Source: Cupriavidus sp. 2SB
GTDB lineage: Bacteria > Pseudomonadota > Gammaproteobacteria > Burkholderiales > Burkholderiaceae
Length of the DNA stretch: 64,000 bases
NCBI RefSeq assembly: GCF_005503625.1
Contig: NZ_SCMX01000032.1
Coordinates: forward strand, 1 to 64,000
Direction: 5' to 3'
Each line of letters opens with the position of its first letter. The first letter of the stretch is position 1. Below, piece by piece: positions 23,153 to 63,017 of this stretch. The notes beneath the pieces are model-generated. The model saw only the letters and a program-made list of their open reading frames with translations. It ran no database searches and had not been told where the DNA came from. A program made the translations under genes and the position numbers.

Positions 23153-23172
23153 AGGAGCAGACGTGAGAACCC

Positions 23173-23296
23173 GGAATTCGCGAGACTGCGAGTTCCGAAA
23201 AATCAAGGACATACCAACTAATTCCGTCGTCACTTCCTCGGCTTAAAACCGGAAATAGTGAGACTAGTCTGAATCGAAGCGCGAATTAGCTGGACT
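23173..23296 (+). repeat. Left-end TnsB-site-like repeats (three copies)
   Basis: Three 15-bp copies in the same orientation are GGAATTCGCGAGACT (23173-23187), GGAAATAGTGAGACT (23251-23265) and CGAATTAGCTGGACT (23282-23296). The middle copy is identical, over 16 bp with its leading C, to the reverse complement of 62980-62995 at the other end of the island. Multiple spaced repeats pointing inward are typical of Tn7-family transposase binding sites. Confidence 0.8.
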
Positions 23297-23529
23297 GCTC
23301 CGAAAGCGCCTGATGATGCACATTTTCGGTCGTTTCCCCCGATCCGCTCTGTACTTTCCTGGCTGCCGCGCGCTAGGTTGCCTGAAACGACCCGCCCAAA
23401 AGATCTGGGAGAATCCCAAAGTAGCTTGCTGCTAGCTCTTAAGTATCCAGCTAGCTAAATCGGCGTGCCGCGGTGGGCGCTTGCGATGCCTTCATCACTT
23501 TCCAGTTCACTGCGGACGGGGAGTGCCGC
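23297..23529. other. Left-end gap with inverted repeats
   Basis: No gene is seen here. Two inverted repeats stand out: GGTCGTTTC (23328-23336) with GAAACGACC (23384-23392), and GCTAGCT (23431-23437) with AGCTAGC (23449-23455). The second sits about 75 bp before the small zinc-finger gene and could be an operator or a ParB-like binding site. Both may be chance. Confidence 0.35.
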
Positions 23530-23979
23530 ATGAAGATCATCAGGGAATGCCTGGCGTGTGGGCTGCCCTTCGAGGTCCGCCCTCAGACGCCAACGCAGCG
23601 CTACTGCTCATCCCCAGATTGCCAAAGACGCCGGCGGCGCGACTGGCATCGGAAACGCATGGCGACCGATGCCGACTATCGGGAAAACCAAGCACGGGCT
23701 CAGCGAGCTTGGGCGGCCTGCCACGCAGACTATTGGCGCATGTACCGCAGTCACCACCCCGACTATAGCGCTCGCAATCGCGAACAACAGAAGCGAAGGA
23801 ATGCAACAAACAGGATTGCAAAGATGGACGTGTGCCGAAGGCTAACGTCAGTCCCGTCCGGCATCTACGCTCTGTCGCCAGCGCCACACAAGCTGATTGC
23901 AAAGATGGACGCCTGGATCGTCCGGATTACAGTCCTGGCGCGGCCGGGTGCAGAGACGATCATGATTGCAAAGAGATGA
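23530..23979 (+). CDS. Small Cys-rich protein of the recombinase/ParB module
   Basis: This is a 149-aa protein that starts with a treble-clef-like zinc site (CLACGLPFE, then RYCSSPDCQRRRRRDW). An aromatic, Arg-rich region follows (DADYRENQARAQRAW, DYWRMYRSHHPDYSARN). Similar small proteins accompany the large serine recombinase plus two ParB-like genes in other proteobacterial islands, as far as I recall. GGGGAG before the ATG at 23530 decides the start. The tail after residue 110 contains the triplet IAKMD/IAKR motif and looks less conserved. Function is unknown; DNA binding is plausible. Confidence 0.6.
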   Translation: MKIIRECLACGLPFEVRPQTPTQRYCSSPDCQRRRRRDWHRKRMATDADYRENQARAQRAWAACHADYWRMYRSHHPDYSARNREQQKRRNATNRIAKMDVCRRLTSVPSGIYALSPAPHKLIAKMDAWIVRITVLARPGAETIMIAKR

Positions 23980-24104
23980 CGTGTCACTGTCAGTGGCGGG
24001 AGCTGCTAGAAATGATGGTGTGCATGCTTCGAGTGATTGCCGGCGATGACGGCTAGGCGAGACACCGGCACGGCACGACGATTTGGACGCTGTGAGTCGA
24101 AATC

Positions 24105-25670
24105 ATGCTGACGGTCGCTCAACAAGCTGGCGTGGAGCCAAGGGAGTCCCTGGTAAGGGCGGCCGAGTATGTCCGCATGTCCACGGAACATCAGCAGTGC
24201 TCGACGGAGAACCAACACAGCAAGATCCAGGATTATGCGCAGCGCCGCGGCCTAAGCATCGTCCGAACATACGCAGACGAGGGTAAGAGTGGCCTGCGCA
24301 TCGACGGCCGACAGGCATTGCAAGACCTAATTCGAGACGTGCAGTCGGGGGCCGCCGACTATCAAGTCATCTTCGTCTATGACATCAGTCGCTGGGGACG
24401 TTTCCAAGACGCCGACGAAAGCGCTTACTACGAGTACATCTGCCGTCGAGCCGGCCTGCAGGTGGCCTATTGCGCTGAGCAGTTTGAAAACGATGGATCT
24501 CCCGTCTCGACAATCGTCAAGGGTGTTAAGCGTGCAATGGCCGGCGAATATAGCCGGGAGTTGTCGACCAAAGTGTTTGCCGGACAGTGCCGGCTAATCG
24601 AGCTGGGATTCCGGCAAGGAGGACCTGCAGGTTACGGCCTTCGCCGGGTACTTGTAGATCAACATGGAGTCATGAAGGGCCCACTGGATCGAGGTGAGCA
24701 CAAGAGCCTTCAGACCGACCGAGTCATCCTGATGCCGGGCCCTGAAAGCGAGGTACGCACACTCAATCTCGTCTACTCCTGGTTCGTTGAGGAGGCGCTG
24801 AACGAGCATGAAATAGCTGCACGCCTAAACGGCATGCGCATCGTGACAGATATGGGACGCCCATGGAGTCGAGCGACAGTTCGGGAGGTACTCACCAACG
24901 AAAAGTACATCGGCAACAACGTATATAACCGCGTCTCTTTCAAACTGAAGAAGATGCGGGTCATCAATACACCCGACATGTGGATTCGTAAGGAGCACGC
25001 GTTCGAAGCGATTGTGCCAAGCGATGTCTTCTACACCGCCCAAGGCATCATGCGCGCGCGAGCACGCCGCTATTCGGACAACGAGCTCATCGATCGTTTG
25101 CGCGCCTTGTACGAAAGCCGTGGGTTCCTGTCGGGTCTTATCATCGACGAGACAGAGGGCATGCCTTCGACCTCCGTCTATGTATATCGATTCGGCAGCT
25201 TGATTCGCGCCTACCAGGCGGTCGGGTTTACGCCGGGCCGTGACTACCGGTATGTAGAAACCAATCGATTCTTAAGGAGGCTACATCCGGACATAGTTAG
25301 CGAAACAGAACAACGGATATCCAATCTCGGCGGCAGCGTACTCCGCGATTCGGCCACCGACATGCTCACATTGAACGGTGAGTTCAGTGCCTCAATCGTC
25401 CTTGCTCGCTGCCAAGCGCCCGCCAGCGGCCACTACCGCTGGAAGGTTCGCTTCGACACGAGCCTTGCGCCCGATATAACGGTCGCTGTACGGCTTGACC
25501 ACGCCAACCAAGGACCGCTGGACTACTACTTGCTACCGCGTCTGGATTTCTGTCAGTCCCGCATTAGTCTTGCGGAACGAAACCACGCTGAGCTGGAGAG
25601 CTATCGGTTCGACACGCTAGATTACCTGTACGGCATGGCAGCCCGTTCAAAGCTTCGGAGGGCAGCATGA
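24105..25670 (+). CDS. Large serine recombinase
   Basis: This is a site-specific DNA recombinase of 521 aa. The N-terminal resolvase domain holds the nucleophile Ser26 in AAEYVRMSTEHQ, with conserved Arg and Asp in VYDISRWGRF. The recombinase domain follows (GGPAGYGLRR, LTNEKYIGNNVYNR), then a C-terminal region particular to this subfamily. No typical zinc ribbon of large phage integrases is obvious. Its stop overlaps the next start (ATGA), so it is translationally linked to two ParB-like genes. It may act on the element or on target DNA of another element. Confidence 0.9.
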   Translation: MLTVAQQAGVEPRESLVRAAEYVRMSTEHQQCSTENQHSKIQDYAQRRGLSIVRTYADEGKSGLRIDGRQALQDLIRDVQSGAADYQVIFVYDISRWGRFQDADESAYYEYICRRAGLQVAYCAEQFENDGSPVSTIVKGVKRAMAGEYSRELSTKVFAGQCRLIELGFRQGGPAGYGLRRVLVDQHGVMKGPLDRGEHKSLQTDRVILMPGPESEVRTLNLVYSWFVEEALNEHEIAARLNGMRIVTDMGRPWSRATVREVLTNEKYIGNNVYNRVSFKLKKMRVINTPDMWIRKEHAFEAIVPSDVFYTAQGIMRARARRYSDNELIDRLRALYESRGFLSGLIIDETEGMPSTSVYVYRFGSLIRAYQAVGFTPGRDYRYVETNRFLRRLHPDIVSETEQRISNLGGSVLRDSATDMLTLNGEFSASIVLARCQAPASGHYRWKVRFDTSLAPDITVAVRLDHANQGPLDYYLLPRLDFCQSRISLAERNHAELESYRFDTLDYLYGMAARSKLRRAA

Positions 25671-26569
25671 ATGAGCCGCGGCAGCCTGGCGAAGTGCGCA
25701 TGATCCCGATCGACAGGGTCGAAGTCCTTAACCCACGGGAGCGCAACGGGCGAGTGTTCGATGAGATCGTCGAAAACATCAAGACCATAGGCCTGAAGAA
25801 GCCCATTACCGTTACACCGCGCGCAGCGCCGGACGGTGGGGAGCGGTACATGCTGGTCTGCGGCGAGGGGCGTCTAAAAGCCTTCCGCTCTCTGGGTGAG
25901 ACAACGATCCCTGCGCTCGTTGTGCATGTGAGTGACGACGACGCCTTCCTAATGAGCCTTGCCGAAAACATCGCGCGCCGCCAATGTCGGTCACTAGAGC
26001 TTCTAGCCGGCATCAGGCAGCTCCACGAGCAAGGTTATACACCCAAGGTCATCGCCGATAAGACCGGCCTTACACAACAGTATGTGCAAGGCATACTGAC
26101 TCTGCTACAGCAAGGTGAGGAACGCCTACTCGTGGCGGTCGAGAAAGGCAGCATACCGTTGAATGCGGCCCTCACCATTGTAGGGGCCGGCGATGACGAC
26201 AAGGCAATACAAGCGGCCCTTCAAGAAGCATATGAATCAGGAAAGCTACGCGGCAAACAGTTGATGGACGCACGGCGCGTTATTGAGCGTCGCGCGGCAC
26301 TGGGTCGAACGACCGCGCACCGCATGCCACGCAACACCAGCGACGTTTCAACGTCTAGCCTCATTCACACCTATCAAAATGAAGTTGAACGGCAAAAGGC
26401 GATGGTACGTAAGGCTGAATTTGCGCAGCAGCGTCTGCTGTTTGTCGTGGGAGCACTGCGTCAGCTATTCGCCGACGAGAATTTTGTCAATCTGCTGCGA
26501 GCAGAAGACCTGGCAACATTGCCGAAGTACCTCTCCGAACGTGTATGGGCTGGAGGTCTGCAGAAATGA
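25667..26569 (+). CDS. ParB/RepB-like protein 1
   Basis: This is a 300-aa protein with an N-terminal ParB nuclease-like/CTPase domain (IDRVEVLNPRERN, GLKKPITVTPR, LVCGEGRLKAFRSLGE, SLAENIARRQ), then a helix-turn-helix (VIADKTGLTQQYVQGILTLL). The family normally binds centromere-like sites in plasmid partition. No ParA is present, so here it more likely works with the recombinase. It overlaps its neighbours by 4 bp at both ends. Confidence 0.88.
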   Translation: MNEPRQPGEVRMIPIDRVEVLNPRERNGRVFDEIVENIKTIGLKKPITVTPRAAPDGGERYMLVCGEGRLKAFRSLGETTIPALVVHVSDDDAFLMSLAENIARRQCRSLELLAGIRQLHEQGYTPKVIADKTGLTQQYVQGILTLLQQGEERLLVAVEKGSIPLNAALTIVGAGDDDKAIQAALQEAYESGKLRGKQLMDARRVIERRAALGRTTAHRMPRNTSDVSTSSLIHTYQNEVERQKAMVRKAEFAQQRLLFVVGALRQLFADENFVNLLRAEDLATLPKYLSERVWAGGLQK

Positions 26570-27447
26570 GCGGCATCACACTCGGCTTCATTCCCGAACC
26601 CCTGAACGTGCCGGTCATCTGCATACTGACATCCCGACGCACGCCAGAGGGAATAAGTACCTCGCGCAAGTTCAAGCAGATCAAGTCGTCGATTGAGGAG
26701 ATCGGGCTAATTGAGCCGCTCACAGTTACCCCCGCCAACCAGCAGTCGGGACAACACGTGCTACTAGACGGACATATCCGTTTGATTGCCCTGCGAGACT
26801 TGGGATTCGTTGAAGCTTCCTGCCTAGTTGCAACGGATGACGAGGCCTTCACCTACAACAATCGCATCAATCGGCTTTCGACTATCCAAGAGCACTTGAT
26901 GCTGCGCAGAGCCATCGAACGAGGTGTGCCACCCGACCGGCTGGCGAGAGCATTTAGCGTCGACATCTCGCACATTCAGAAGAAGATCAATCTCCTAAAT
27001 GGAATCTGCCCGGAAGCCACGGAACTGTTGAAGGATCGACAGTTTTCCCCGGAGCTTGTGCGCGCCATACGCAAAATGAAGCCGACCAGGCAGGTTGAAT
27101 GTATCGAGCTCATGGCATCGGCGAACAATCTTACCGTCGCGTACGCCGAAGCCTTACTTGTGGCCACGCCCGCGGCACTGCTTGTCGATGGGAAGAAGCC
27201 AACCAAGCTGACTGGCGTCACCCAAGAGCAGATGGCAAAGATGGAGCGGGAGATGACAAACCTTCAGGGTCAATACAGGCTCGTTGAGCAGACATACGGC
27301 CAAGATGTCTTGAACCTGGTCTTGGCGAAGGGCTATTTGGCGAAGCTTCTTGAGAATGAGTCTGTTGCCACGTTCCTGCGTCAGAGGCAGCCAGACCTGC
27401 TCGCAGAGTTCGAGCTTATTGTGCAAACCGTTTCGCTAGATCAGTAG
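26566..27447 (+). CDS. ParB/RepB-like protein 2 with RepB C-terminal domain
   Basis: This is a 293-aa ParB-fold protein. It has TSRKFKQIKSSIEEIGLIEPL, then LLDGHIRLIALRDLG and NRINRLSTIQEH. The C-terminal part (ICPEATELLKDRQFSPELV, RKMKPTRQVECIELM) resembles the RepB plasmid-partition C-terminal family. The ATG at 26566 overlaps the previous stop. It completes a recombinase / ParB1 / ParB2 transcription unit seen across proteobacterial islands. Confidence 0.88.
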   Translation: MSGITLGFIPEPLNVPVICILTSRRTPEGISTSRKFKQIKSSIEEIGLIEPLTVTPANQQSGQHVLLDGHIRLIALRDLGFVEASCLVATDDEAFTYNNRINRLSTIQEHLMLRRAIERGVPPDRLARAFSVDISHIQKKINLLNGICPEATELLKDRQFSPELVRAIRKMKPTRQVECIELMASANNLTVAYAEALLVATPAALLVDGKKPTKLTGVTQEQMAKMEREMTNLQGQYRLVEQTYGQDVLNLVLAKGYLAKLLENESVATFLRQRQPDLLAEFELIVQTVSLDQ

Positions 27448-27576
27448 AGCCTGAGGCTTGGGCGCCCCGGCCTCGATCACCGGACGCCACAACGCGGTGC
27501 AGGAGGGTCACCAAGACATGGGCCGACGGAAACAGCACCTCATATAATCATGGTTACAAGAAAAAATGGTAATGAG

Positions 27577-29061
27577 ATGTCTTTCAAGATAACAGAGATA
27601 AAAAGAAAAAATCTAGGCCGTCACGCGGTGAGCGGTCGTGTGCGAGACAGGGACAATCGCATTACCTTGCTCGTGGGACCGAACGGGTCGGGAAAAACGC
27701 AGGTCTTGGTGGAGATGCTGGATAAATATGTTCATGGACGCCGCAGTCGATCGTCGCTCGCCTCGGGCATCGAGATCGAGGGAGTTGGCGAGCCATCGCG
27801 CGTGGTGGCACAGACATTTAGTCCGTTCTCGCGTTTCCCCAGGGAGAATACAAAGCCGCTGACCCTTCAAGAGTACCTGGAACCATCACCGGGCCCATAT
27901 GCGGCAATTGGCTTGACGCGGGGCAACGGTATTGGGCGTCCCATTGCTCGGGAGGTGACCGGACGCATCCTAAAGCGTCTGTACGCGAATCCCTTGGAAG
28001 CGCCTTCGTTCGCCGTCGCGCTCACGAGCATGGGATTTCTTCCGCGCTTGACCCTCGTATATGCCACCACCCCGCTGGCGCGGAAAATCGAATTCGAGTC
28101 GGACGGATGGGAACTGCATGACTCGGTTAACCGATATCTTATGGGCGTCCAAGGCGATGCCGAGTTCTTGCCCCAGGAGTTGCCGCTTCGACGGGAAGTT
28201 GCCCCCGCAGATAAATCGATCTCCCCAGCGGAGGCCCGCGAACGTCTCGTTGAACTTTTGGTGGATTCCATCTCACAGGTGAAAGAGACGAGTTTTAATC
28301 ATCTCAACCGGCGCGATCAGTCCTACACACTTGCCGTGGATCTGCGGAGGGATGATGCCTCTGCCAGGCAGTTGCACGCATTTCTTGTCTTGAGTCGAAC
28401 AGGATTTCTGCGGATACGCAACTGTTATCTGGAGCCCGTCTCAGCCGAAGAGCGCACCTGGCAGATCGCGCTCGGAACCGAGAAGGAGTTCGATATCACA
28501 GATGCAAGCTCCGGGCAGCAACAGACGCTCAGTTCGCTCTTCGGAATTGCCGCAGAGGTCGAGGACGATTCACTGCTTCTAATCGATGAACCGGAATTGA
28601 GCCTTCATCCAGCCTGGCAGAGTAGTTATCTCGACAATCTCCGCGGAGTATTGTCCTCGCGAAAGGGTTGCGACGTTTTTATTGCCACTCATTCTCCGTT
28701 GATTGCACAGAGAGCGCGCGAACTCGGACTGGAAATGATCAATCTTGCCAAAGATGAGGCATCGCCTGATGTATCGCACGCCGAGGTATCACGCACCGAG
28801 GCTTCAGTTGACCAAATATTGCTCGATGATTTCAGAGTCGCAGTGCGCGATAGCACCTATGTTGCACACCACCTGCTGTCGCTGGTCATGAAGGCGGAGC
28901 GTGAGGCGGAAAAGGGAAGGCATGCCGATGATGTCATGGGGCGGTTGCTATTTCTCCAGGGGCTATATAACACGTCTTCCACACCGGACAGTAAGATCGA
29001 TAAGCTAATTGCCGATGCGATTAGCATCGTCTCGACCGCCAATAATCGTGACCGGGGCTGA
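27577..29061 (+). CDS. Septu-like AAA ATPase (PtuA-like)
   Basis: This is a 494-aa ABC/SMC-type ATPase. Walker A is GPNGSGKT (residues 34-41). Walker B with signature is LLLIDEPELSLHPAWQ (about 335-350), followed by the D-loop and switch ATHSPL. An HNH protein starts 4 bp after its stop, the two-gene layout of the Septu anti-phage system. I chose the ATG at 27577 over 27550 because a perfect TATAAT at 27543-27548 would place transcription start after the upstream ATG. This is weak support. Other ATPase-HNH systems exist, so the name is a family-level guess. Confidence 0.72.
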   Translation: MSFKITEIKRKNLGRHAVSGRVRDRDNRITLLVGPNGSGKTQVLVEMLDKYVHGRRSRSSLASGIEIEGVGEPSRVVAQTFSPFSRFPRENTKPLTLQEYLEPSPGPYAAIGLTRGNGIGRPIAREVTGRILKRLYANPLEAPSFAVALTSMGFLPRLTLVYATTPLARKIEFESDGWELHDSVNRYLMGVQGDAEFLPQELPLRREVAPADKSISPAEARERLVELLVDSISQVKETSFNHLNRRDQSYTLAVDLRRDDASARQLHAFLVLSRTGFLRIRNCYLEPVSAEERTWQIALGTEKEFDITDASSGQQQTLSSLFGIAAEVEDDSLLLIDEPELSLHPAWQSSYLDNLRGVLSSRKGCDVFIATHSPLIAQRARELGLEMINLAKDEASPDVSHAEVSRTEASVDQILLDDFRVAVRDSTYVAHHLLSLVMKAEREAEKGRHADDVMGRLLFLQGLYNTSSTPDSKIDKLIADAISIVSTANNRDRG

Positions 29062-29065
29062 GGAA

Positions 29066-29902
29066 ATGCAAAATCCCAAGCTGCCGCGAAAGATCCTGAA
29101 GTTTGAACTTGAGCAAATTCCGTGGTCCGAAACCGAATTCAATACCCTACTCTCCATCGCAGCGAAGCATAAGGATCGCGCGTGGGATCATGCTGGAAAG
29201 GACTCTCCGCTTGATGAAGCCGAGAAGGAACTTGTCAAGAATTTCAAGACCGCTCTCAAGAATCATCTCTACAGCGTCGCCCAAGGCAGGTTTTGCTGCT
29301 TCTGTGGCACGAAGCTTCAGAGTCATGATGCAACGAAAGACCTGGAGCATCTCATTGCAAAGGAGGGCAAGGAGCATGTTGTATTCGCCTTGAAAAACAT
29401 TGCACTTTCCTGCAAGGATTGCAATGTCTCGAAGGGGAGAAAAAAAGTAACAGTTCTCGCGCTAAATGAGGGCTCAGATGATCCCGATAATGTTCTCGCA
29501 CTTTCTAAGGAATATCTCATCATTCATCCACATCATGATGAATGGCAGGAGTATCTTTACGTCGACACGTTTGGACGTGTGACTGCTCGCGACGCCTCGG
29601 TTGACGGGAAGGGCAGCACGACACTGAGGATCTGTGGCATTCATCGAAAGAACGCCATGGAGCTTGCCGATCATTTCGTATGGCTTCGCTCAGACGGGAA
29701 GCGGCATAGCGATTGGGTCGACTTTTACTCGCTGGTCAACAGCAAGGAGACGGATGAAAAGCGCCTCGAAAAACTAATGGATTTTGCGTTTGGGTTAGCC
29801 GACGCCTTACGGAGTCCAGAAACCCCCTCGGAAGACACAATTGACTTCGCGCTGATGGATATCATCGAACGTGCAGGGCTCAGTGGAGCAGCCGCGGATT
29901 AG
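29066..29902 (+). CDS. HNH endonuclease (PtuB-like)
   Basis: This is a 278-aa protein with an HNH nuclease domain in residues 75-125. A CxxC pair (CCFC) comes first, then DLEHLIAK with the first catalytic His95, and NIALSCKDCNVSKGRK giving the second CxxC and Asn/Lys. The C-terminal half, about 150 residues, is unfamiliar. The start at 29066 follows GAGGAA directly after the ATPase stop, so the two are surely co-expressed. In Septu, the ATPase controls this nuclease. Confidence 0.78.
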   Translation: MQNPKLPRKILKFELEQIPWSETEFNTLLSIAAKHKDRAWDHAGKDSPLDEAEKELVKNFKTALKNHLYSVAQGRFCCFCGTKLQSHDATKDLEHLIAKEGKEHVVFALKNIALSCKDCNVSKGRKKVTVLALNEGSDDPDNVLALSKEYLIIHPHHDEWQEYLYVDTFGRVTARDASVDGKGSTTLRICGIHRKNAMELADHFVWLRSDGKRHSDWVDFYSLVNSKETDEKRLEKLMDFAFGLADALRSPETPSEDTIDFALMDIIERAGLSGAAAD

Positions 29903-39019: not shown

Positions 39020-39130
39020 ATCTTCGCTCCAGCGAATCCGATCTAAGGCGATGCGCAGTAGATCTGGCACGTGCACTGGAACGCCGACGGATATCTGTTG
39101 TCACCCCACTTTGGCCCAAAGAGAGGCTTG

Positions 39131-44330: not shown

Positions 44331-44633
44331 ACGGCCGCATCTGGAGATGGTACTTAGTACAACATACTGAACGGGCTCAGCGGCTATTGAAGTACATTTC
44401 AGTCTACTTGCCAAGAAGAGTTTTTCTTGCAAGCTGTTGATATATAAGGTTTTATACCGTTAAACAGTACCAAAAGCGTAAGCCGATGGCCGCCGCCCGT
44501 TCCGCCGTCACGTTGGAAGTCGGGCGTGGCTGGGCTACGAGCGCACCTGCTGGGCAGCAGGTCCCGAAGGTTTGCCGACTGGTGATGCCATTCGCCGCCC
44601 TATCGCCATGTGAGGCTCGAGCTGAGCAAGACG
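44331..44633 (-). promoter_or_regulatory. Promoter/operator region of the XRE gene
   Basis: This 303-bp gap contains an AT-rich block (44430-44470, ATATATAAGG and TTTTATACC). The palindrome GTACT-T-AGTAC lies at 44350-44360, with further single AGTAC copies near 44391 and 44466. Short palindromes 20 bp before an XRE start are typical autoregulatory operators. Assignment is by position only. Confidence 0.35.
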
Positions 44634-45509: not shown

Positions 45510-45517
45510 GGCCGGGG

Positions 45518-47710: not shown

Positions 47711-47723
47711 CTCGTTCGCTCCC

Positions 47724-51926: not shown

Positions 51927-54678
51927 TTGTCTCTCCCTTCTTGCTTTTGGTAAGCCGCGCCAGCGGTGGCACAACGCGTTCGACTCGATAGACGCAGCGC
52001 AGCGCCTCTTGCTGCAGTTGCCGAATGGCGTCTTCGGGAACCTTGCGGTAGGCGGCCGCGCTTTCGGGCTGAAACAGGATCTCTGCGTACCGGGCGACCA
52101 GCTCTCTTCCGAGGTACTGGTTCAAGCGCCGGGCATTCAGTACGAAACCCCAGTGCTGTTTCGCGGCCTCCTCGCTCATGCCCAAGGCCTTGCAAAAGAT
52201 GATGAAATACTTGGTCTCTTTGGCGGCGTGGGGCCGCGAATCGTTCTCGTGCAGGGACAACCAGTAGTAGACACGCCCCAATCTGCATTCCTCGGCCTTG
52301 GAATCGAGTTCAACCATCCTGGCATGAATTTCTCGTGCCAGAGCTGACCGTTTCGTGGCTTTAAACATTAGCGCGCAGCGCCTCTGAACATCGTCGTGGT
52401 ATAGCTTGAGCAATGTACGCACGGGGTCGACAACCGATCTCACCCCTTCGCCATTCAGCTGGAGCGATGATTCCAACTTGGCGCGAAGTTCATCGCTCAT
52501 GTCGAAGATGAAGTCGCCTTGTTGGATGGCGCTCGCGGCAGCACGCCGGAACGGGGGGTCTTCATCGGGCACGTGGCGGTAGACCCAGCCATACGCGTAC
52601 GCCCGGCCGCCACCCTCCAGCTCGAACTTGAAGTAGGCCTGCTCGTCGCTCTCACCGCTGCGGCCATTTTCGTCGAACTTGAACGTCAGAGACATCTCGC
52701 GAAGTTTGCCAATGACGAGCGGGTTCGGAACTTCTGCCAGGCGTCGCTCAACCTCTTGGGCCAGCAAGCCGATGCGTCCCCGGTAGGCCTTGAACGCCTC
52801 CGGCTCCTTCATGCAGGTCAGCGTCGTAAGGGTGGACTCGGCTTGCCGATAAGCGAGTAGGACTGCGGTGCCGTGCGGCACATCTGGATGCGTCACCAAG
52901 ATGCGAACTACATCGGGGTTGATACCTACGAAGGTGATATGTTTCCCTTTCCTGTCGCCGGTTAGCGTCTTGGCAACGGTGGATAGCGTGTGCCATTCGA
53001 TGCGTGTTTCGGCAGAGGGCCAGTCAGCACCAAGCTTTCGTTGGAGGAAGCGATGCGCCAGCAGGACGTACTGGTTGTTCGGCAGCACCAGCGAGATGCC
53101 CTGCCGGCTCGCAACCGCATGCTTTCGGACTTCGGCAAGCATGCGGGATGCCATCGGCGTGGCATCGTTCCAGTCGTCGATGAGCTTCTCTGCCTGCGCG
53201 ATGGATTGTTCGACCGAGTCACGTACGTGGTTCAACGCACCGGAGGTAAGTGCCGCCACGAGTGCCAACTTGACGGGAATCCAGGCATTCTGCTGGCTTC
53301 CGTAATCGCCTCCTCCCGATTCTGCAGACGCCGCAGTGAGGTCCGTGTACCCGGCAGGCATGTTCGACAGCCGCAGGATATACATGCACGCTTGGAGCAG
53401 CGCCTGATAGGCGGGGCGCTCCTCTTTGCCGGCAGACAAAGTCAGGCGTTGGAATTTCAGTGCGAGCTGTGACGCGTCTCGGTCGACGATGCTGACGCTG
53501 AAGTTCGAGTTGCTGCGCTGGGCGGGATGCCAATCTTCAGCGACTGGATGCGCGGAGAGCAGCACGTCCTCAGCTTCTGCGGCCCACACTCTAGTCGAGA
53601 ACGGAATCTTGGAATCCCGAAGCTGCCCCCGTATGATGAAGAAGGTTTTGGGGTCATCCGTTACGATGACGGCCCCTGCATCGGAGAAGCCGTTTTCCCG
53701 AGCGAACAATAGAAAATCAGGAATGCCATTGACCGCAGCGTAGTTCGTTCGCGACGCGGTGTCCGTCGCGTCCAGCAGTAAAACCTCCGGCCGGCCTTGG
53801 CCCTTTAGCGCTGGGTCGGCCAATGCCGTACGCCACGAGTCCTTCTTCGCCGTGTGGTGCATCACCATGAGGGCGCTCGGCGCTTTGCCAGGGGTGCCCC
53901 ACTCGAGGTTGACCTTCTCTCGCAAGTCACGCCGATGCGCGAGGCGTCCCACTTTGGCGAGGGTGCGCTCCAGCGGGTTCGAGACCGTCGTCGCCCAAGT
54001 GCGATTGGCGGGGTCGAAGACGAACGTCGGAACGAGCTCTGCGAGCGAGGGATTGGGCGATTCAGGGTTGTGCTGGGTGAGGTCATTGAGGGCCGACAAC
54101 GCGGCCAGGAGTGCAGGCGACGACGTGTAGGCCTCTACCTCGAATGAGCCGTTTGCCTGTTGCACCCACAACGTCCGATAAAAGGCGCTCAGCAACTCGC
54201 GATTGGCGAGCACGCTGTGGAGCGGAGCGCGGCAAGCATGCGTGCCGGGGTAGAGTACGGTTCGCATCCCACGCAGGTCCTTGGCGAAGATGCGCTCAAC
54301 GTTTGCGAGTGCGTGCAACAAAGGCGGCGCGGTCAACTTGGCAGGCCAGACCAGGCAAAGTGCCACGTCTCCACTGTCGGCAGCGCCGAGCAGCGTGCTC
54401 ACAAGCCCCTTCGCCCAGGGTTGCGGAGCGATGGTCTCGTTTGCCGTCCGCGACAGGTAGCTCAAGGGAGCGCTTCCGGCACGGACCTGTGCCCACTGCC
54501 GTTGTGGGCGCATCGGGGTAGGCGGCTTGGCTAGGGCTGGGGGCGCCGCTTCGACATGGACAGGGAGCTGCTTACCTCCGACCGGCTTCGCTACAAATTT
54601 GCGGGCGAGTTCGGCAAGCTTTTCTCGCGCTTTTGTTTGGTCCGCCTGGCGCTTCGCCAGTGATTTGAGTTGAGGCAT
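51910..54678 (-). CDS. Large unrecognised protein of the DISARM-like operon (DrmE-like position)
   Basis: This is a 922-aa protein with no family I can assign. It has a basic coiled N-terminus (KSLAKRQADQTKAREKLAELARKF). Two regions resemble degenerate nucleotide-binding strands (PEVLLLDATDTASR near 310, and GKHITFVGINPDVVRILV near 585), but no Walker A or DEAD/SNF2 motif is visible. It therefore does not look like DrmD, the SNF2 helicase of class 1 DISARM. It might be a distant DrmE (class 2) or a new component. It lies between the methylase and drmA in a tight operon, overlapping drmA by 17 bp, so a shared function is very likely. Confidence 0.65.
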   Translation of the reverse strand: MPQLKSLAKRQADQTKAREKLAELARKFVAKPVGGKQLPVHVEAAPPALAKPPTPMRPQRQWAQVRAGSAPLSYLSRTANETIAPQPWAKGLVSTLLGAADSGDVALCLVWPAKLTAPPLLHALANVERIFAKDLRGMRTVLYPGTHACRAPLHSVLANRELLSAFYRTLWVQQANGSFEVEAYTSSPALLAALSALNDLTQHNPESPNPSLAELVPTFVFDPANRTWATTVSNPLERTLAKVGRLAHRRDLREKVNLEWGTPGKAPSALMVMHHTAKKDSWRTALADPALKGQGRPEVLLLDATDTASRTNYAAVNGIPDFLLFARENGFSDAGAVIVTDDPKTFFIIRGQLRDSKIPFSTRVWAAEAEDVLLSAHPVAEDWHPAQRSNSNFSVSIVDRDASQLALKFQRLTLSAGKEERPAYQALLQACMYILRLSNMPAGYTDLTAASAESGGGDYGSQQNAWIPVKLALVAALTSGALNHVRDSVEQSIAQAEKLIDDWNDATPMASRMLAEVRKHAVASRQGISLVLPNNQYVLLAHRFLQRKLGADWPSAETRIEWHTLSTVAKTLTGDRKGKHITFVGINPDVVRILVTHPDVPHGTAVLLAYRQAESTLTTLTCMKEPEAFKAYRGRIGLLAQEVERRLAEVPNPLVIGKLREMSLTFKFDENGRSGESDEQAYFKFELEGGGRAYAYGWVYRHVPDEDPPFRRAAASAIQQGDFIFDMSDELRAKLESSLQLNGEGVRSVVDPVRTLLKLYHDDVQRRCALMFKATKRSALAREIHARMVELDSKAEECRLGRVYYWLSLHENDSRPHAAKETKYFIIFCKALGMSEEAAKQHWGFVLNARRLNQYLGRELVARYAEILFQPESAAAYRKVPEDAIRQLQQEALRCVYRVERVVPPLARLTKSKKGETSAHPQ

Positions 54679-54711
54679 TACAAAGTCCGCACCATGTGTT
54701 GCCCTGCCTGA

Positions 54712-56457
54712 TCAATTCTCTGAAATAAGCCCAAATGCTAGGTTCACCGCTTCGTCCATCGACCTGCCATTGGTAGCGGCTTCCTTAAGCGCTTGTGGAT
54801 TGGGGAGTACGAGCTGGTTGAGCTCAAACGCTGAAACATTGGTGGCACCGGAGATGCACCGAAAGTAGCGGTCGACTGCGTGCGCGCTTAGCAGCTTTGC
54901 CAGCTTTGTCGGCGGTAGCTCTGGCTTGTCGCTCACAGCTTCGAGGATAACGACGTGGTTCTCGCCGATGAATCCCCCATATGAGTCAAAGACACCAGGG
55001 GAGACTGCTGCCGCCACCAAGCGCCGAGGTTGGTCGTTCGACGTCACACGTTGCAAGACTACGCTGGGCGACGTGATTACCGACGTATGTTTCCTGTCAC
55101 CGAGATCCACAAAGCGATGCTCTCCATCGAAGGCTGACGTGTCCTCTAGTCGGACGATTCCTCCTGAGACGATGTCTCGGGACCACATCAGGGGCATGGC
55201 GGTGTCCGCTTTGACACGTCGAGCATCTTGAAGGGATTCAAACTTAGGGCGCTTGTCCCGGTTCCACACATACGCCCCGATGCGTATGCGATAGCCGTAG
55301 TCCGATAAGCGAGACTGAGAGAGCGCTGCTCTCTTGAGGAGGGTCACGTCCTCGAGAGAACGGGGAATGGGCCACACGGCACCGGCGTTGGGCAGTCTGC
55401 ATTCGCCAACATTCGTGTACTGGCCAGTAGCTGATACCACCGATACGTTGGCTCTCATTTTCGTGCGGTCCTCTTCAGCGCGGCGACGCAGCACGGTCAA
55501 TGCGGTCTCTTGTTCGACGTCAATGAAAACGCCCTGTCTGTCACTGACCATGCCTATGTGCTTTACATCAGTGTTGCGGAGAAGGAATTTGCGCAACCGC
55601 CCGAAGTACTGCCCGGAGAGGTAGCTGGTCGGTGTGACCAGCGCGGCGTGACCACCAATACGCAGCAAGCGCACGCAGAGAGTTATGAAAAGCGCGTAGA
55701 GGTTCGGTTGCGCCTCGATAACGTCGGTGTAAATAGGACGCAACGGTTCCAGCTCTTCGGAAGTCATCTTGCGGTATGGCGGATTGCAGACGACCACGTC
55801 GGCAGTCCCGACGACGGGGGCCAAGTGGGTCAGGGAATTTGCCGCATAGACCGAAAACGACGGAACGTAGCCAGTCTCCAGGATTTCCTCGTGTAACGCC
55901 ATGCAGAGAAAATGCTTGGAAAGCGCACACAATGTCTTGTCCAGGTCGACGCCATAGAGGCGCTTCTCTATGTGCTTAAGCAGCTTTAGGGCCGTGTACC
56001 CCTTTGTCTTCAGCGCTGTTCGCATGCGCAGCGCAATTGGGGCTAGAAAGGCCGCGCCCCCGCACGCCGGGTCTATGAAGGACTGGCTTCCGAAATCGAC
56101 GCCTTGAGCGGCCAGATCATCTAGAAGCCCTTCGGCGAGCGATGTTGGCGTGAAGAACATCGCAAGCCTTTTTCTATGGTCTGCGTCAGCCAATATCGCG
56201 TAAGAGGAGCTGAGCCAATATGTGGCATCGAGAAAGCTCATTTGAGCCAGGAGGGCAACGAAAGCGCTGAGCTCTGGCTCCGAAGCAAGGGCCTTAGAAA
56301 AAGGCAGAGATGGTTTGGGTAGCTTCGGATACGCTGATTTGCACCACATGCGCAGTAAAGTTCCGACAAGCGTCGGTACGTCACCCCCGCAGCGCTCAGC
56401 TGCAGAGCCGAGTGCTCTAATGCGGCGCTTGATTGCCTGCTTCGACAAAGGAACCAT
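54712..56457 (-). CDS. N6-adenine DNA methyltransferase (DrmMI-like)
   Basis: This is a 581-aa adenine-specific methylase of the N6_Mtase/Eco57I type. Motif X-like FFTPTSLAEGLL is followed by the SAM-binding motif I (FIDPACGGAAFL, residues 127-138) and the catalytic NPPY (residues 225-228). SYLSGQYFGRLRKFLL and a C-terminal target-recognition-like half follow. In class 1 DISARM an adenine methylase marks host DNA. The ATG at 56457 directly follows a TTG that could also start it. The next gene starts 33 bp after the stop. Confidence 0.85.
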   Translation of the reverse strand: MVPLSKQAIKRRIRALGSAAERCGGDVPTLVGTLLRMWCKSAYPKLPKPSLPFSKALASEPELSAFVALLAQMSFLDATYWLSSSYAILADADHRKRLAMFFTPTSLAEGLLDDLAAQGVDFGSQSFIDPACGGAAFLAPIALRMRTALKTKGYTALKLLKHIEKRLYGVDLDKTLCALSKHFLCMALHEEILETGYVPSFSVYAANSLTHLAPVVGTADVVVCNPPYRKMTSEELEPLRPIYTDVIEAQPNLYALFITLCVRLLRIGGHAALVTPTSYLSGQYFGRLRKFLLRNTDVKHIGMVSDRQGVFIDVEQETALTVLRRRAEEDRTKMRANVSVVSATGQYTNVGECRLPNAGAVWPIPRSLEDVTLLKRAALSQSRLSDYGYRIRIGAYVWNRDKRPKFESLQDARRVKADTAMPLMWSRDIVSGGIVRLEDTSAFDGEHRFVDLGDRKHTSVITSPSVVLQRVTSNDQPRRLVAAAVSPGVFDSYGGFIGENHVVILEAVSDKPELPPTKLAKLLSAHAVDRYFRCISGATNVSAFELNQLVLPNPQALKEAATNGRSMDEAVNLAFGLISEN

Positions 56458-57204
56458 CAATCCATCCCTAGACGCGCGTTGCCCTTACCCGCTTCGTCAT
56501 CTGCCGGCTTATCGGTCATTTGCCCACTCCTAGGCGTCTATCTATTACTGGAAGGATTCTACCGGTCGGTAGATGCTGCTGAAATAATAAGATCGAGGGG
56601 TTCAGGCGCTGCGCGGCTGACCGGTCCCTTCAATCCGGGGCTAGCGGACAAGTGAGTCTAAAAAACGACAGTCCGGAAACGACCGTCTACATGACCGCCG
56701 AGCCCGAGCAGATTCCCGCCAGCCCGCCCACTACGCAGGCGGTCGCATCGGTTTCATTTCAGAACAGAACGTCCGTCCAACTGATGACGTCCAAATCGCT
56801 GGTGAAATTTGTCACAATAGGTGGACATCGCCTTCTTTTTTCCCCGAGTAGTAAGTTCATAGCCGAACAGATCGAAGGGATCGTTGAGATTCTTCAGCGT
56901 GGAAATCTTGATGCGAGCGTAACGCCCTGCAAAGCGCGGCTCACGGAGGCTAATTCGTGGACGCGCAATGGGTAGGATGGGCTTTTTCACGCTCGCCCGG
57001 CATAGAAGAAGAGCCCTGCCAGGGCAGGCAACAGATATTAGAGGCTACGGGTGCAGAATACCCCTAAGATGGGGGGCCATTAAACTCTAGACTGCAGATC
57101 ATCAGGGCGGGCGTCGCTTCCGGACGGTGGGCTCGCTATAATCGTTACTTCCTCAGATCTCAAGATTGCTAGATGGGTTGTCGTTGCAGAGAGTGGCGCT
57201 TCCA
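56458..57204. other. Divergent promoter region with a gene fragment
   Basis: This 747-bp gap separates the divergent DISARM-like operon and the GHKL-ATPase gene. It must contain both promoters. It holds one possible gene fragment, listed separately at 56754-56990. I see no further supported gene; a 107-codon plus-strand frame at 56652-56975 lies opposite the fragment and has no recognisable motif. Confidence 0.4.
56754..56990 (-). pseudogene. Possible DUF2971-like N-terminal fragment
   Basis: This 78-codon frame includes STLKNLNDPFDLFGYEL and RGKKKAMSTYCDKFHQ. The FNDPFD-type motif preceded by a short strand is characteristic of the start of DUF2971 proteins, which are usually 200-300 aa. 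Here the frame ends early, with no recognisable continuation. I therefore call it a truncated remnant; a small intact gene is possible. Confidence 0.4.
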
Positions 57205-58281: not shown

Positions 58282-58305
58282 AGTTCGTCTCATTAAATTA
58301 CCGGC

Positions 58306-58987: not shown

Positions 58988-59710
58988 ATGCAAAACAAAA
59001 CGACCCAAGACGACGAACAGCGTCGTCAACGCTTCAAAATCCTGGTGGCCCAGGGAAGCACCACCTTCCAGAGCGTAGAACTGGAAGACCCCGTCCCCCT
59101 CGGCCGCCAGATTCTGGCTGCCTGCGGCCTGCGTCCGGAGGGCGACTACACGCTCTTCAACATCCTGCAAGCCGGCGACTTCGAAGACGTCCGCCTGGAT
59201 GAGCCGGTAGACCTGCGTCGCCCCGGCGCAGAACGCTTCATTGCCTTCAAGTCGGATCGTGACTTCAAGCTGACTCTCAATGGCAGTCAGATCGTGTGGG
59301 GCCTTCCCAAAATCTCGGGTACGGATCTCTACGCACTGGCCAAAGCGTCGCAGGACGAAGCCGTGTTCCTGGTCGTGCGTGGTGGCGAAGACGTGCAGAT
59401 CGAGCCGGAGGATGAGGTTGACCTCACGGCTCCCGGCATCGAGCACTTCGAAGTGGCCCCCCAGCGCCACACCAAGATTGTGATCATCGTGAACGGTCGC
59501 GAGAAAGAAGTGCCGACCCGCCATATCACGTTCGAGCAACTGGTCGCGCTGGCCTACCCGGGTGAGCCGCCGCAGCCGAACATCACCTACGACGTCACCT
59601 ATCGCAAGGTCGCGTCCTTTCCGCACCAAGGGGAACTGGCCGCCGGCGGCTCGGTTGAAGTCAAGAAAGACGGGAGCATCTTCAATGTCGGCCGCACTAT
59701 TCAATCGTAA
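58988..59710 (+). CDS. Multi-ubiquitin domain protein (three beta-grasp repeats)
   Basis: This is a 240-aa protein made of three ubiquitin-like domains, at about 14-88 (FKILVAQGSTTFQSVELED), 89-155 (DFKLTLNGSQIVWGLPKISG) and 156-230 (KIVIIVNGREKEVPTRHITF). It matches the bacterial multi-ubiquitin family. The C-terminus (GSIFNVGRTIQS) has no di-glycine, so activation by the neighbouring E1 would need processing or a different chemistry. It overlaps the E2/E1 gene by 26 bp, so they are co-expressed. Confidence 0.88.
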   Translation: MQNKTTQDDEQRRQRFKILVAQGSTTFQSVELEDPVPLGRQILAACGLRPEGDYTLFNILQAGDFEDVRLDEPVDLRRPGAERFIAFKSDRDFKLTLNGSQIVWGLPKISGTDLYALAKASQDEAVFLVVRGGEDVQIEPEDEVDLTAPGIEHFEVAPQRHTKIVIIVNGREKEVPTRHITFEQLVALAYPGEPPQPNITYDVTYRKVASFPHQGELAAGGSVEVKKDGSIFNVGRTIQS

Positions 59711-60857
59711 TCCGGACCTCAAACGCCTGTGGGATGAGGGCTACAAGGTGCGCGTCGAAGGCGGAACGCTGGTGATGCTAGACGTCCCTTACGTTAACGC
59801 GAAGCGCGAAGTGAAGATGGGCAAGATCATCTCGCCGCTTTGCCTAGCGGGCGACGTCACGCAGAAGCCGGAACCGCACACGGTGCACTTCGAAGGCGAA
59901 TTTCCGTGCAATGCACAGGGACGCCCGTTGCAGAGCATCGCGGTCGGAGGGCAAGTGCCGCCAGATCTGCACGCAGTCGGCCCTCACCACTTCTCGACCA
60001 AGCCGGATGCAAGCGGGTACTCGGACTACCACCAGAAGATGACCACGTACGCGAACATCATTGCGGGTCCCGCCGGACAGATCGAGCCCGATGCAAGTCC
60101 CCGTAAGTTCTGGCAACCGATGGACGACGAGGACAGCATCTTCAACTACGTGGAAAACGCATCTGGTCGCGCGGGCATTGAAGAGCTAACGGTTCGCCTT
60201 GCCAGTGATCGCATCGCGATCCTCGGCGTCGGGGGCACCGGCTCCTATGTCCTTGATCTTGTTGCCAAAACGCCCGTTCGCGAGATCAGGCTTATCGATG
60301 GCGACGACTTCCTGCAGCACAACGCTTTTCGTGCGCCTGGGGCGCCAACGCTGGACCAACTCCGCGAGGTGCCCAAGAAGGTTGACCATCTTCGCGGCAT
60401 CTACAGCAACATGCATCGCGGGATTACCGCGCACGCGGTGGAGTTCAGTACAGCAACTCTCGGGCTTCTGGAAGGCGTGACATTCGCATTCCTCTGTATG
60501 GATGCGGGTCAAAGCAAGCGGGTGGCGGTCGAGGAACTCGAGAAGCGCGACATCCCGTTCATTGATGTGGGAATGGGACTCGAGTTGACCGACGGTAACC
60601 TTGGGGGGATTTTGCGGACCACGCTCAGCACCCCGAACCACCGGGAGTTCGCGCGCAAGAAAATTTCTTTCGAGGAACGTTCGGGCGAGAATATCTACGG
60701 TTCTAACATCCAGGTGGCCGACCTGAATGCGATGAACGCTGTGCTTGCCGTGTTCCGGTGGAAGCGGTATCGCGGCTTCTACCGGGATATGGAGGGTGAA
60801 CTGCACAGTTTGTTCACGACCGACGGAAACATGCTGCTGAATGGTGGTTCCGAATGA
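59685..60857 (+). CDS. E2-like/E1 (ThiF) fusion adenylyltransferase
   Basis: This is a 390-aa protein. Residues 1-160 are an E2-like domain of the kind found in front of ThiF in multi-ubiquitin operons (VHFEGEFPCNAQGRPL, HHFSTKPDASGYSDYHQKM). Residues 165-385 are an E1/ThiF fold: ILGVGGTGSYVLDLV (near 180) binds ATP, LIDGDDFLQHNAFR holds the Asp, Asn and Arg of the active site, and FLCMDAG follows. I see no Cys in the region where E1 enzymes have the catalytic Cys; the E2-like part has Cys in SPLCLAGD and EFPCNAQ. GGGAG precedes the ATG at 59685. Confidence 0.85.
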   Translation: MSAALFNRNPDLKRLWDEGYKVRVEGGTLVMLDVPYVNAKREVKMGKIISPLCLAGDVTQKPEPHTVHFEGEFPCNAQGRPLQSIAVGGQVPPDLHAVGPHHFSTKPDASGYSDYHQKMTTYANIIAGPAGQIEPDASPRKFWQPMDDEDSIFNYVENASGRAGIEELTVRLASDRIAILGVGGTGSYVLDLVAKTPVREIRLIDGDDFLQHNAFRAPGAPTLDQLREVPKKVDHLRGIYSNMHRGITAHAVEFSTATLGLLEGVTFAFLCMDAGQSKRVAVEELEKRDIPFIDVGMGLELTDGNLGGILRTTLSTPNHREFARKKISFEERSGENIYGSNIQVADLNAMNAVLAVFRWKRYRGFYRDMEGELHSLFTTDGNMLLNGGSE

Positions 60858-61315
60858 TGCGGCACTCGGAGCTTGCGCCCCGTTTCATGACCACCATCCC
60901 AGGTGAGCTAGAAGGGGGCGTGCTGTACATATCGATGGAGTACGGCACGGTGGTCCATAGCTGCTGTTGTGGCTGTGGCCATGAAGTGGTAACACCACTT
61001 ACCCCGACAGACTGGTCGCTGACGTTCGACGGCGAGGCGGTCTCGCTCTGGCCTTCCGTTGGAAGCTGGAATCTGCCTTGCCAATCGCACTACGTCATCA
61101 AGGGAAACAGGGTGGTGGAAGCTGGACCTTGGAGTCGCAAGATGGTCGAAAAGGAGGTCAAACACGGCAAAGCGGCCAAGGCGAGGTACTACGCTAATCT
61201 CAGCAAGTCGTCTGTAGATACTGGCGTTAGCAAAGCGAAACTGGACCCCGGTCAAGAATCGCGAGCAACGGACTTGAGCCCGTGGAAGCGCTTTTGGGCT
61301 TGGCTGTCGAAGTAG
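60854..61315 (+). CDS. DUF6527 family protein
   Basis: This is a 153-aa protein with a Cys-rich turn (CCCGCGHEVVTPL) and the family hallmark WPSVGSWNLPCQSHYVI, consistent with a zinc-binding fold. DUF6527 proteins regularly follow ThiF genes in ubiquitin-like operons; their biochemical role is not known to me. The C-terminal 55 residues are Lys-rich and end in a Trp-rich stretch. The start overlaps the E1 stop (ATGA). Confidence 0.8.
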   Translation: MMRHSELAPRFMTTIPGELEGGVLYISMEYGTVVHSCCCGCGHEVVTPLTPTDWSLTFDGEAVSLWPSVGSWNLPCQSHYVIKGNRVVEAGPWSRKMVEKEVKHGKAAKARYYANLSKSSVDTGVSKAKLDPGQESRATDLSPWKRFWAWLSK

Positions 61316-61399: not shown

Positions 61400-61464
61400 C
61401 CCACAGCGGTAACCTAGCAGGAGTCTTGCCTATTTCATGGGGGCACGCCCCGTCCTTTCGCTAC

Positions 61465-62721
61465 CTAGAAGTCCAAACCGAAATCGCGGTCAAGGAGCCG
61501 CATCTTTCCAGTTTCCGTGCTTACGACTACGTCAAGTTTGCGGTGAGCGTACTTGATCGCCTCCGTGGAGTGGACCTCGAGGCTGTCCTCCACATACCGA
61601 ACCCTGAACTGCTCTCCAATCCCACCCGTCAATAGCGTGGGATCTGCGAACAGGACGACATTTGTCCCGCCCGCCCTTTGAGCAGACGCAAACAGAATTC
61701 CGTCAAACGGAGCCTCGTGGACGTGTGCCAGATACTCTGCCATCGTCTGAGTGATCAGGTAGTCTGCCTCTCGCCCCGGCACAACCGGTTTGGCGATCAA
61801 GGTGTGCAGCATCTGGAGAAACCGGCCGCGCTCGCGCTGAGTTATATAGTCCGGCTGAAAATAGCTTAGATCTTTTACGCTTTTCGCAGCCTCGAGCCGC
61901 GAAAAGTCCAGCACGCGTAGCGGTTGAGTGGTCTCAAGAGCGATCTGAAATATGTCGGTCTTCAAGGCGGGCCGGAGCTCTGCGCGCGCCGTCTCGGGCT
62001 CTGTTGCTGCATATAGCACTACAACCCCATCCGCATTCATGCGTCCTGCCCTAGCGACTTCTTTTGGCGGCGGGCCAACCCGCTGTAATGGGGCTGCGAA
62101 GGTCGACTCGAGATCGTCAGGTGATCCGCTGATCCTGGCTCGATAGAGTCGAGTACCCTCGGGAAGCTTCCGCACCACGGATCGAGAGCGAGTACCCCGT
62201 CGCTCACGGACGTGATCTATGTCTGCAAACAATGAAGCGAAGAGGTCACGGGCCGAAGCGCTGAAAAATCGCCGCGAATACTTGAGTTCTTCAACAGTAC
62301 GCTCCCACTTCGCGATGTAGCTCTCCACCCCGATTGGCCTGGGAACATAGTAAGTCGTTTCATCCCAAAACGGCCCACCACCGCGAGATGGAAAATAATC
62401 GTCTGCCGCGACGACCGCGTCGGCGATCGCATCGTTCGCATCCAGATATTGGCCCAGGACCTCTTGGACAAGATCCTCAATTGTCTCCCCTTGCTGGATC
62501 CAGTCACCTCTGTCATCGTCCCCGTGGAACACCTTGTACTGCTCCCCCGGTGCGAAATTTCGGTGCAGGACCGGTTCAAGAAACTCGCCGAGTTTCTCGA
62601 CCGAGACAGCCAAGTCATCGCTTTCGCCGCATTGGTCGCATTCGACCTTAGAGCCGTTTTGCTCGATGAATAGCCGTACGTGGGGATCATCAATGCAGCT
62701 ACGACAAATGGCTTGGGTCAC
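61465..62721 (-). CDS. RES-domain protein with HEPN/RES N-terminal domain
   Basis: This is a 418-aa protein. A short zinc-binding pair (CRSC, CDQC) opens a roughly 180-residue N-terminal domain of the HEPN/RES-NTD kind. The RES domain follows with its three hallmark positions: Arg in TRLYRARISG, Glu in EPETARAELRP and Ser in GILFASAQRAG. RES toxins degrade NAD+. The usual Xre-type antitoxin is not adjacent, so it may be an abortive-infection effector. AGAGAG precedes the start. Confidence 0.82.
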   Translation of the reverse strand: MTQAICRSCIDDPHVRLFIEQNGSKVECDQCGESDDLAVSVEKLGEFLEPVLHRNFAPGEQYKVFHGDDDRGDWIQQGETIEDLVQEVLGQYLDANDAIADAVVAADDYFPSRGGGPFWDETTYYVPRPIGVESYIAKWERTVEELKYSRRFFSASARDLFASLFADIDHVRERRGTRSRSVVRKLPEGTRLYRARISGSPDDLESTFAAPLQRVGPPPKEVARAGRMNADGVVVLYAATEPETARAELRPALKTDIFQIALETTQPLRVLDFSRLEAAKSVKDLSYFQPDYITQRERGRFLQMLHTLIAKPVVPGREADYLITQTMAEYLAHVHEAPFDGILFASAQRAGGTNVVLFADPTLLTGGIGEQFRVRYVEDSLEVHSTEAIKYAHRKLDVVVSTETGKMRLLDRDFGLDF

Positions 62722-62879
62722 TCTCTATGGCTCATTGGATGCGTTGCGCATATTCTATCGCCCCAACGACTTACGGCCACTGATGTCTACGCACCGGATC
62801 GCGCGCCTGCGACATGGCTCCATCGTTGCCCTCAGCGCGAGGCCAGGCCCGAAGCCCGCGCCAGCGCTGGGAGCGGGCG

Positions 62880-62908
62880 AAAAAAAACCAACCGAGAACG
62901 GTTGGTTT
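62880..62908 (-). terminator. Intrinsic terminator on the gyrB strand, inside the element
   Basis: On the minus strand a perfect 10-bp stem (AAACCAACCG/CGGTTGGTTT) with a 4-base loop runs into a T-tract. It lies about 110 bp after the gyrB stop, inside the right-end repeats, and so would end gyrB transcripts. Confidence 0.9.
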
Positions 62909-62936
62909 CCCTACAGTATGGTTATGGTTGCACGTC

Positions 62937-62994
62937 AGTCGCGGTAATTCCGGAATTTCAGTCTCACAATAGGGCTCGTAGTCTCACTATTTCC
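62937..62994 (-). repeat. Right-end TnsB-site-like repeats (three copies)
   Basis: Read on the minus strand these are GGAAATAGTGAGACT (62994-62980), CCCTATTGTGAGACT (62974-62960) and GGAATTACCGCGACT (62951-62937). The first equals the middle left-end copy. They point inward, opposite to the left set, which is the arrangement of transposase binding sites at Tn7-like ends. Spacing here is tighter (20-23 bp) than at the left (78 and 31 bp), an asymmetry also seen in Tn7. Confidence 0.8.
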
Positions 62995-63017
62995 GAATTC
63001 CTACACTACAAGACTGC

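Follow-up and report, generated by a model that had tools for sequence, protein, structure and literature searches.

Elements of the Tn7 family are used for safe chromosomal insertion, and to our knowledge few protein-recognised attachment sites have been characterised. Tn7 itself is directed by TnsD, which binds the final 36 bp of the glmS coding region, with insertion about 20 bp past the stop codon (PMC2918618). For Tn7-like elements, the sites named in the accessible parts of PMC10293859, PMC8649781 and PMC11406308 are glmS, transfer RNA genes, and comM or parE. Here we describe an island of about 39.8 kb, directly behind gyrB, in a 64,000-nucleotide stretch of Cupriavidus sp. 2SB (contig NZ_SCMX01000032.1, positions 1 to 64,000; hereafter the window). 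The target gene is present in nearly all bacteria. The island is very probably a Tn7-like transposon, belonging to a group that targets the 3' end of gyrB with a long TniQ protein as its TnsD, and, judging from sequence comparison, gyrB looks like a shared, repeatedly used attachment site of this group in Burkholderiales.

The group resembles Tn7 in carrying tnsABC with a TniQ-family selector, in lying behind the stop codon of a conserved gene in a fixed orientation, and in a 5-bp target duplication (PMC2918618). It differs from what the same source describes in its target, gyrB, and in ends that lie 2–13 bp past the stop in most loci as against about 20 bp at glmS; moreover, no TnsE family was detected among the 29 open reading frames (ORFs) scanned here, and tnsA lies far from the gyrB-side end in the window copy. 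Tn7017, a type I-F3 CRISPR-associated transposon (CAST) that is targeted to parE by TniQ, likewise has two TniQ proteins and a site beside a type II topoisomerase gene (PMC11406308), but that gene is parE rather than gyrB. In the window, Pfam found no Cas family in the 29 ORFs (short ORFs being outside the scan) and Rfam gave no match at its gathering score, so that the island is not classed as a CAST. CMGI-E of C. metallidurans CH34 (TnsABCD1D2) shares with the island a Burkholderiales host, two tnsD genes and a position other than attTn7 (PMC3384475); the accessible text of that paper names no attachment gene.

No word starting with "gyr" occurs in the main texts of PMC10293859, PMC8649781, PMC11406308, PMC3384475 and PMC10702557, and a search outside which most subscription journals, preprint servers and supplements fell turned up no paper that gives gyrB as a site of the Tn7 family. 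We therefore regard gyrB as a new attachment site, with its selector group, of a known kind of transposon, for which an earlier report is possible. P. putida HB3267 has a Tn7-like transposon at locus tags 00025-00140 (PMC4731212). From the gene order of that region, it may be beside gyrB.

Transposition genes and ends of the island

Pfam recognised tnsA, tnsB, tnsC (TniB) and two tniQ genes, all on the minus strand, between 37673 and 43638. A preliminary description of the window, made from its letters alone, had proposed these genes and a Tn7-like transposon, and the operon, the ends and the polarity all agree with it. The features on which the argument rests are as follows.

23162..23300, plus strand: left (rtcA-side) end, with motifs at 23172 and 23250 and a weaker third near 23282; terminus CGT, not TGT
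37673..39076, minus strand: long TniQ, 467 aa, with TniQ (PF06527) and an excisionase-like helix-turn-helix (HTH) region; proposed gyrB selector (TnsD)
39131..40015, minus strand: short TniQ, 294 aa (PF06527, E 3.3e-13)
39906..40937, minus strand: tnsC, TniB AAA+ ATPase (PF05621, E 2.1e-31)
40941..43022, minus strand: tnsB, DDE transposase with rve and Mu C-terminal domains (Pfam)
42937..43638, minus strand: tnsA, TnsA-like endonuclease (Pfam PF08722, E 2.2e-13)
43905..44432, minus strand: XRE-family regulator, beside tnsA in relatives too (85–87% identical in genomes G038 and G056)
62930..63005, minus strand: right (gyrB-side) end, beginning TGTAGGAATTCGGAAATAGTGAGACT, with motifs at 62980 and 62937 and a weaker one between
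63006..63017, minus strand: 12-bp spacer from the right end to the gyrB stop, its last five bases on the gyrB strand being TGTAG
63018..63974, minus strand: 3' part of gyrB, the target gene (Pfam GyrB domains)

The gyrB stop codon (63018–63020) lies 12 bp from the right end, in line with the claimed insertion within about 20 bp of it. Both gyrB and the tns operon are on the minus strand, and the operon reads away from gyrB, as had been noted. The tnsA gene does not stand at the gyrB-side end but begins about 19 kb from it. The tnsB gene matched at least 5000 plasmid records; the 5000 compared are all below 60% identity (15 of them listed at 26–34%), and thus no close plasmid copy was seen.

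The island is bounded at approximately 23162 and 63005. With up to three mismatches, the motif CGGAAWTAGTGAGACT occurs four times in the 64-kb window, compared with 0.55 expected and with at least four in 0 of 100 shuffles, and all four copies stand at the island ends facing inward (left, 23172 and 23250 on the plus strand; right, 62937 and 62980 on the minus strand). The island interior holds no further copy at this threshold; at four mismatches three more matches appear, at 12566, at 23211 (left end, opposite orientation) and at 34903. The copies at 23250 and 62980 form the exact 16-bp inverted match that had been reported across the island. Three motifs per end had been proposed in opposite orientation; two per end stand at three mismatches, and the third is weaker and was read by eye. 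The outermost 31 nucleotides of the two ends (at 23162 and 63005) are identical at 22 of 31 positions, and none of 5000 random pairs from the island interior was as good. Several putative TnsB-type motifs per end, in opposite orientation, thus accompany tnsA, tnsB and tnsC together and two genes of the TniQ/TnsD selector family.

Use of gyrB as an attachment site

Within the genus, gyrB was located in 59 of 60 genomes (E <= 1e-80), and nine of the 60, including that of the window, have a TniQ match no more than 30 kb downstream of it on the same strand. Half of 30 genomes, again counting the window (15/30), carry TGTAG or TGTCG in the first 25 bp past the gyrB stop; these 30 were the genomes whose gyrB ends came first by similarity, unselected for elements, and random 25-mers from the same loci contain either pentamer in 465 of 7400 cases. 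When seven more genomes, chosen for elements or contig context, are added, the count is 22/37. All nine genomes with a nearby TniQ have such an end, as do 13 of the remaining 28, which have no TniQ within reach and whose ends may be remnants or belong to other elements.

The association extends across the order. A profile was built from 12 long TniQs, including two that belong to other Burkholderiales families, and was run on 399 genomes of the order, and 15 places were counted at E <= 1e-70 once the rows used for the profile had been left out. Eleven of these (G446, G337, G183, G294, G219, G312, G108, G399, G435, G176 and G263) lie 4–22 kb downstream of gyrB on the same strand, each with a TGTAG or TGTCG end 2–9 bp past the gyrB stop, and gyrB has no such end in any of three examined genomes whose TniQ match is elsewhere (G425, G342 and G253). 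The gyrB site, which the preliminary description had called less familiar, is therefore borne out by many relatives. None of four weaker matches from this search (E 1e-34 to 1e-51) was found near gyrB: those in G253 and G131 are more than 200 kb away, and those in G210 and G137 are on other contigs, the latter at a contig start, so that it might still belong near gyrB. A class-level search of 369 genomes gave strong matches only in the window's own genome and G108, plus three weak ones (G582, G613 and G787). In the contig collection, a single-sequence search with the long TniQ gave no match, and a four-row TniQ alignment gave one locus, in Burkholderiaceae bacterium 16.

Tn7-like ends were also seen directly behind lysS in two genomes and msrB in two genomes (L155 near 12066, L153 near 12577, L156 near 9120 and L154 near 8955). 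Behind lysS, TGTAGG begins 24 bp past the stop in G342 and 27 bp past it in G425; behind msrB, TGTAG overlaps the stop in contig C1 of G086, and a weaker TGTATG lies 11 bp past it in G425. Both genes apparently serve this TniQ group as additional attachment sites. Phosphoglycerate mutase was rejected as the target gene in G086 C1, where the end adjoins msrB.

Target-site duplications and stacked insertions

Insertion at gyrB is marked by duplications in relatives. We evaluated 21 gyrB loci, in stretches of 10 to 64 kb, for an exact 5-bp duplication with a partner end differing at no more than two of its first eight bases; G312 was left out of the count, its stretch beginning beyond the needed part of gyrB. 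Eight of the 21, including the close relative G053, have the duplication together with matching TGT...ACA termini. They delimit elements of 30,679 bp (G053), 27,801 bp (G021), 31,432 bp (G032), 12,776 bp (G183), 13,933 bp (G337), 25,926 bp (G446), 38,178 bp (G108) and 24,222 bp (G435). Applied to random sites within these stretches, the test succeeded in 99 of 2100 trials (4.7%), and about one of 21 loci would therefore be expected by chance. In G337 and G108 the duplicated bases take in the last two of the stop codon. Two candidates were not counted, G038 because its flanks (TCAGT and CAGTT) are one base out of register, and G007 because its ends are dissimilar despite an exactly matching pentamer.

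The window copy departs from this pattern. Its flanks (GCAGA and CTACA) share no 5-bp duplication, contrary to what had been anticipated, and its left terminus reads CGT, in contrast to the TGT of G038 and G053; a near match (AGACG/AGACT, four of five bases) was discarded because chance would readily produce one. A single intact element of 39.8 kb is hence not proven, and the earlier description of a single element of about 40 kb is not confirmed against a product of stacked insertions. These features bear on the intactness of this copy and not on its family membership. That the island is a composite, left by successive elements beside gyrB and a later deletion so that its two ends stem from different insertions, is possible, although we consider it less likely than not. 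It would account for the unshared flanks and for cargo on either side of the tns operon. In its favour, too, the pentamer that precedes the right end on the gyrB side, TGTAG when read from gyrB, repeats the start of the element itself, as also in G056, and stacking occurs in relatives. That pentamer suggests that the window copy went into the end of an older element, five bases from its terminus. The composite origin is harder to reconcile with a single motif type at both ends, including the exact 16-bp match, and none inside at three mismatches; the related G053 also has long stretches flanking the tns operon, yet carries an exact duplication.

Stacking itself is seen elsewhere. A second right end lies directly behind the first element in G399 (near 13.8 kb) and G219 (near 24.0 kb), and G056 has two right ends about 110 bp apart; these tandem ends appear to be traces of stacked insertions beside gyrB. 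In such tandem ends a left end is followed within a few base pairs by a second right end, as at L165 near 13810 and in G219 (L172 then L173) near 23967.

The proposed selector of gyrB

Two TniQ proteins in the window raise the question of which one selects gyrB. In seven elements at gyrB (in G025, G083, contig C9 of G086, G021, G032, G007 and G016) a single TniQ was detected, of the long type, whereas a second, shorter TniQ is also present in the window, G038, G053, G056, G028 and G108. Selection by the short protein, which is retained with the element in G038, G053 and G056, is accordingly very unlikely, given the seven elements in which the long type only was detected. The short TniQ probably serves a second target pathway, by analogy with other two-TniQ Tn7-like elements. 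We conclude from these comparisons that the 467-aa TniQ is a putative TnsD-type selector reading the 3' end of gyrB, and that its group is spread through Burkholderiales.

In a quick tree of 57 TniQ rows, the 11 long TniQs linked to gyrB group together with that of G056 (SH-aLRT 90), and the gyrB label requires four changes, compared with 13.3 on average after shuffling. A structural model predicted for the long TniQ (mean pLDDT 78.7) matches solved TniQ chains best (E 2.8e-8), with a TnsD chain at rank 13 (E 1e-4) and excisionase chains among the matches at weak E-values. The C-terminal part of the protein scores as an excisionase-like HTH, Pfam scoring two such helices in the window protein. 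The gyrB-linked TniQs outside the window's own group are about 580–700 aa long (that of G263 is cut by the stretch end) and have a C-terminal extension, which in our reading would consist of further winged helices. In a 31-row tree with four outgroup rows, the lysS pair and the msrB pair (100 each) group with the row of G294 (100), which is linked to gyrB; this suggests that targets have been switched. We conclude that this selector group appears to re-use and stack at gyrB, and sometimes to have switched genes.

Several results pull the other way. Four of the 15 strong TniQ matches are not at gyrB, two being behind lysS and two behind msrB. With weak support, the 31-row tree places three outgroups inside, and in it the gyrB label takes six changes against a shuffled mean of 8.0, with 28 of 500 shuffles as low, so that it is not clearly clustered; because of both, the exclusivity of the gyrB-linked group is not firm. 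The TM-scores of the structural matches are low (0.3–0.4), and the window protein has none of the C-terminal extension of the ~600-aa members. Thirteen of the 21 gyrB loci, including the window with its CGT terminus, have no duplication in the available stretch, and at the chance rate about one of the eight duplications could be false.

Position, orientation, the duplications in relatives and the linkage to TniQ are read directly from the DNA, and we propose the following course of insertion. The long TniQ would act as TnsD, its C-terminal HTH region binding the conserved coding end of gyrB much as Tn7 TnsD binds that of glmS, and once bound would recruit TnsC. TnsC would position TnsA and TnsB for insertion a few base pairs past the stop, with the TGT-ended side toward gyrB, giving the 5-bp duplication found in relatives. 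As the gyrB coding sequence would stay intact, insertion should be harmless and repeatable, and elements would stack beside earlier ones, as the ends in three relatives indicate, the newest presumably nearest gyrB. The left terminus and duplication of the window copy may have decayed, or may have been rearranged after insertion next to an older element.

We think it quite possible, if short of probable, that the long TniQs make up a set of naturally retargeted selectors, in which a TniQ core with two to four excisionase-like winged helices (as we read the alignment) reads the 3' ends of housekeeping genes. In such a set gyrB would be the commonest target and lysS and msrB derived switches, with elements queuing beside gyrB across Burkholderiales. 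If this is so, one scaffold reads different genes through a modular C-terminus, and insertion sites could possibly be chosen by protein only. Eight sequence-bounded gyrB insertions, and a selector group with natural switches to lysS and msrB, would open to direct test the way in which TnsD-type proteins recognise their targets and change them.

The gyrB neighbourhood

Window DNA conserved in relatives stops near 18905 and is followed by rtcR-rtcB-rtcA (18946–23094), the island and gyrB. In relatives, the distance from conserved DNA to the gyrB stop is about 140 bp in G010, 0.8–0.9 kb in G012, G009, G035 and G050, and 2.2 kb in G004. Empty sites of the kind sought by the preliminary description thus exist; in G010, for example, the conserved neighbour gene stands only about 140 bp from the gyrB stop. 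In the window, the extra DNA between these two genes comprises the rtc operon as well as the island.

This RNA-repair operon lies between the conserved neighbour gene and the island, and rtcA is rare, with 6 of 100 searched genomes, counting that of the window, matching at E <= 1e-60. The rtc genes of G005 are directly behind gyrB in the opposite orientation, and the operon thus appears accessory at this locus. A perfect 42-bp palindrome, terminator-like, occupies 23111–23152 between rtcA and the left end.

The presence of other accessory DNA here, the rtc operon for one, and the usual location of gyrB near the replication origin might be taken to mean that these surroundings are merely a tolerant region, with no homing directed by TniQ. 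We regard this as most improbable in view of the fixed orientation, ends only a few base pairs past the stop, duplications well above the random rate, and the 11 of 15 loci placed at gyrB by a TniQ match.

Cargo

The element carries several virus-defence systems, and gyrB, a re-used landing place in Burkholderiales, serves in the window for anti-phage cargo. The cargo comprises the following.

24105..25670, plus strand: large serine recombinase, likewise on the left-end side of the tns operon in G038 and G053
25667..27447, plus strand: two ParB/RepB-like proteins
27550..29902, plus strand: Septu-like PtuA and PtuB (PADLOC)
35326..36453, plus strand: NOV_C protein, candidate defence family PDC-S36 (PADLOC, E 2e-99)
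44634..56460, minus strand: DISARM-like operon of DrmC, DrmB, DrmA, a 922-aa protein and an N6 methylase (PADLOC, NCBIfam)
58988..61315, plus strand: multi-ubiquitin protein, DUF6791/ThiF E1-like protein and DUF6527 protein (Pfam)
61465..62721, minus strand: HEPN/RES-domain toxin-like protein (Pfam)

The DISARM-like operon has drmA, drmB and drmC (PADLOC E 5.3e-88, 6.5e-16 and 9.4e-15) together with the N6 methylase; the DrmA and DrmB scores are under the NCBIfam cut-offs. The genes drmD and drmE define the classes of DISARM, and neither was recognised here. Between the N6 methylase and DrmA lies the 922-aa protein (51910–54678), which has no match in Pfam, PADLOC or NCBIfam. The genes at 58988–61315 are of the ubiquitin-like conjugation operon type, and such operons are linked to defence. 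The serine recombinase and ParB/RepB-like module (24105–27447; L052, L053 and L055) is shared by the window, G038 (two copies) and G053, in each of which it lies between the left end and the tns operon, and may therefore be a regular part of the element group.

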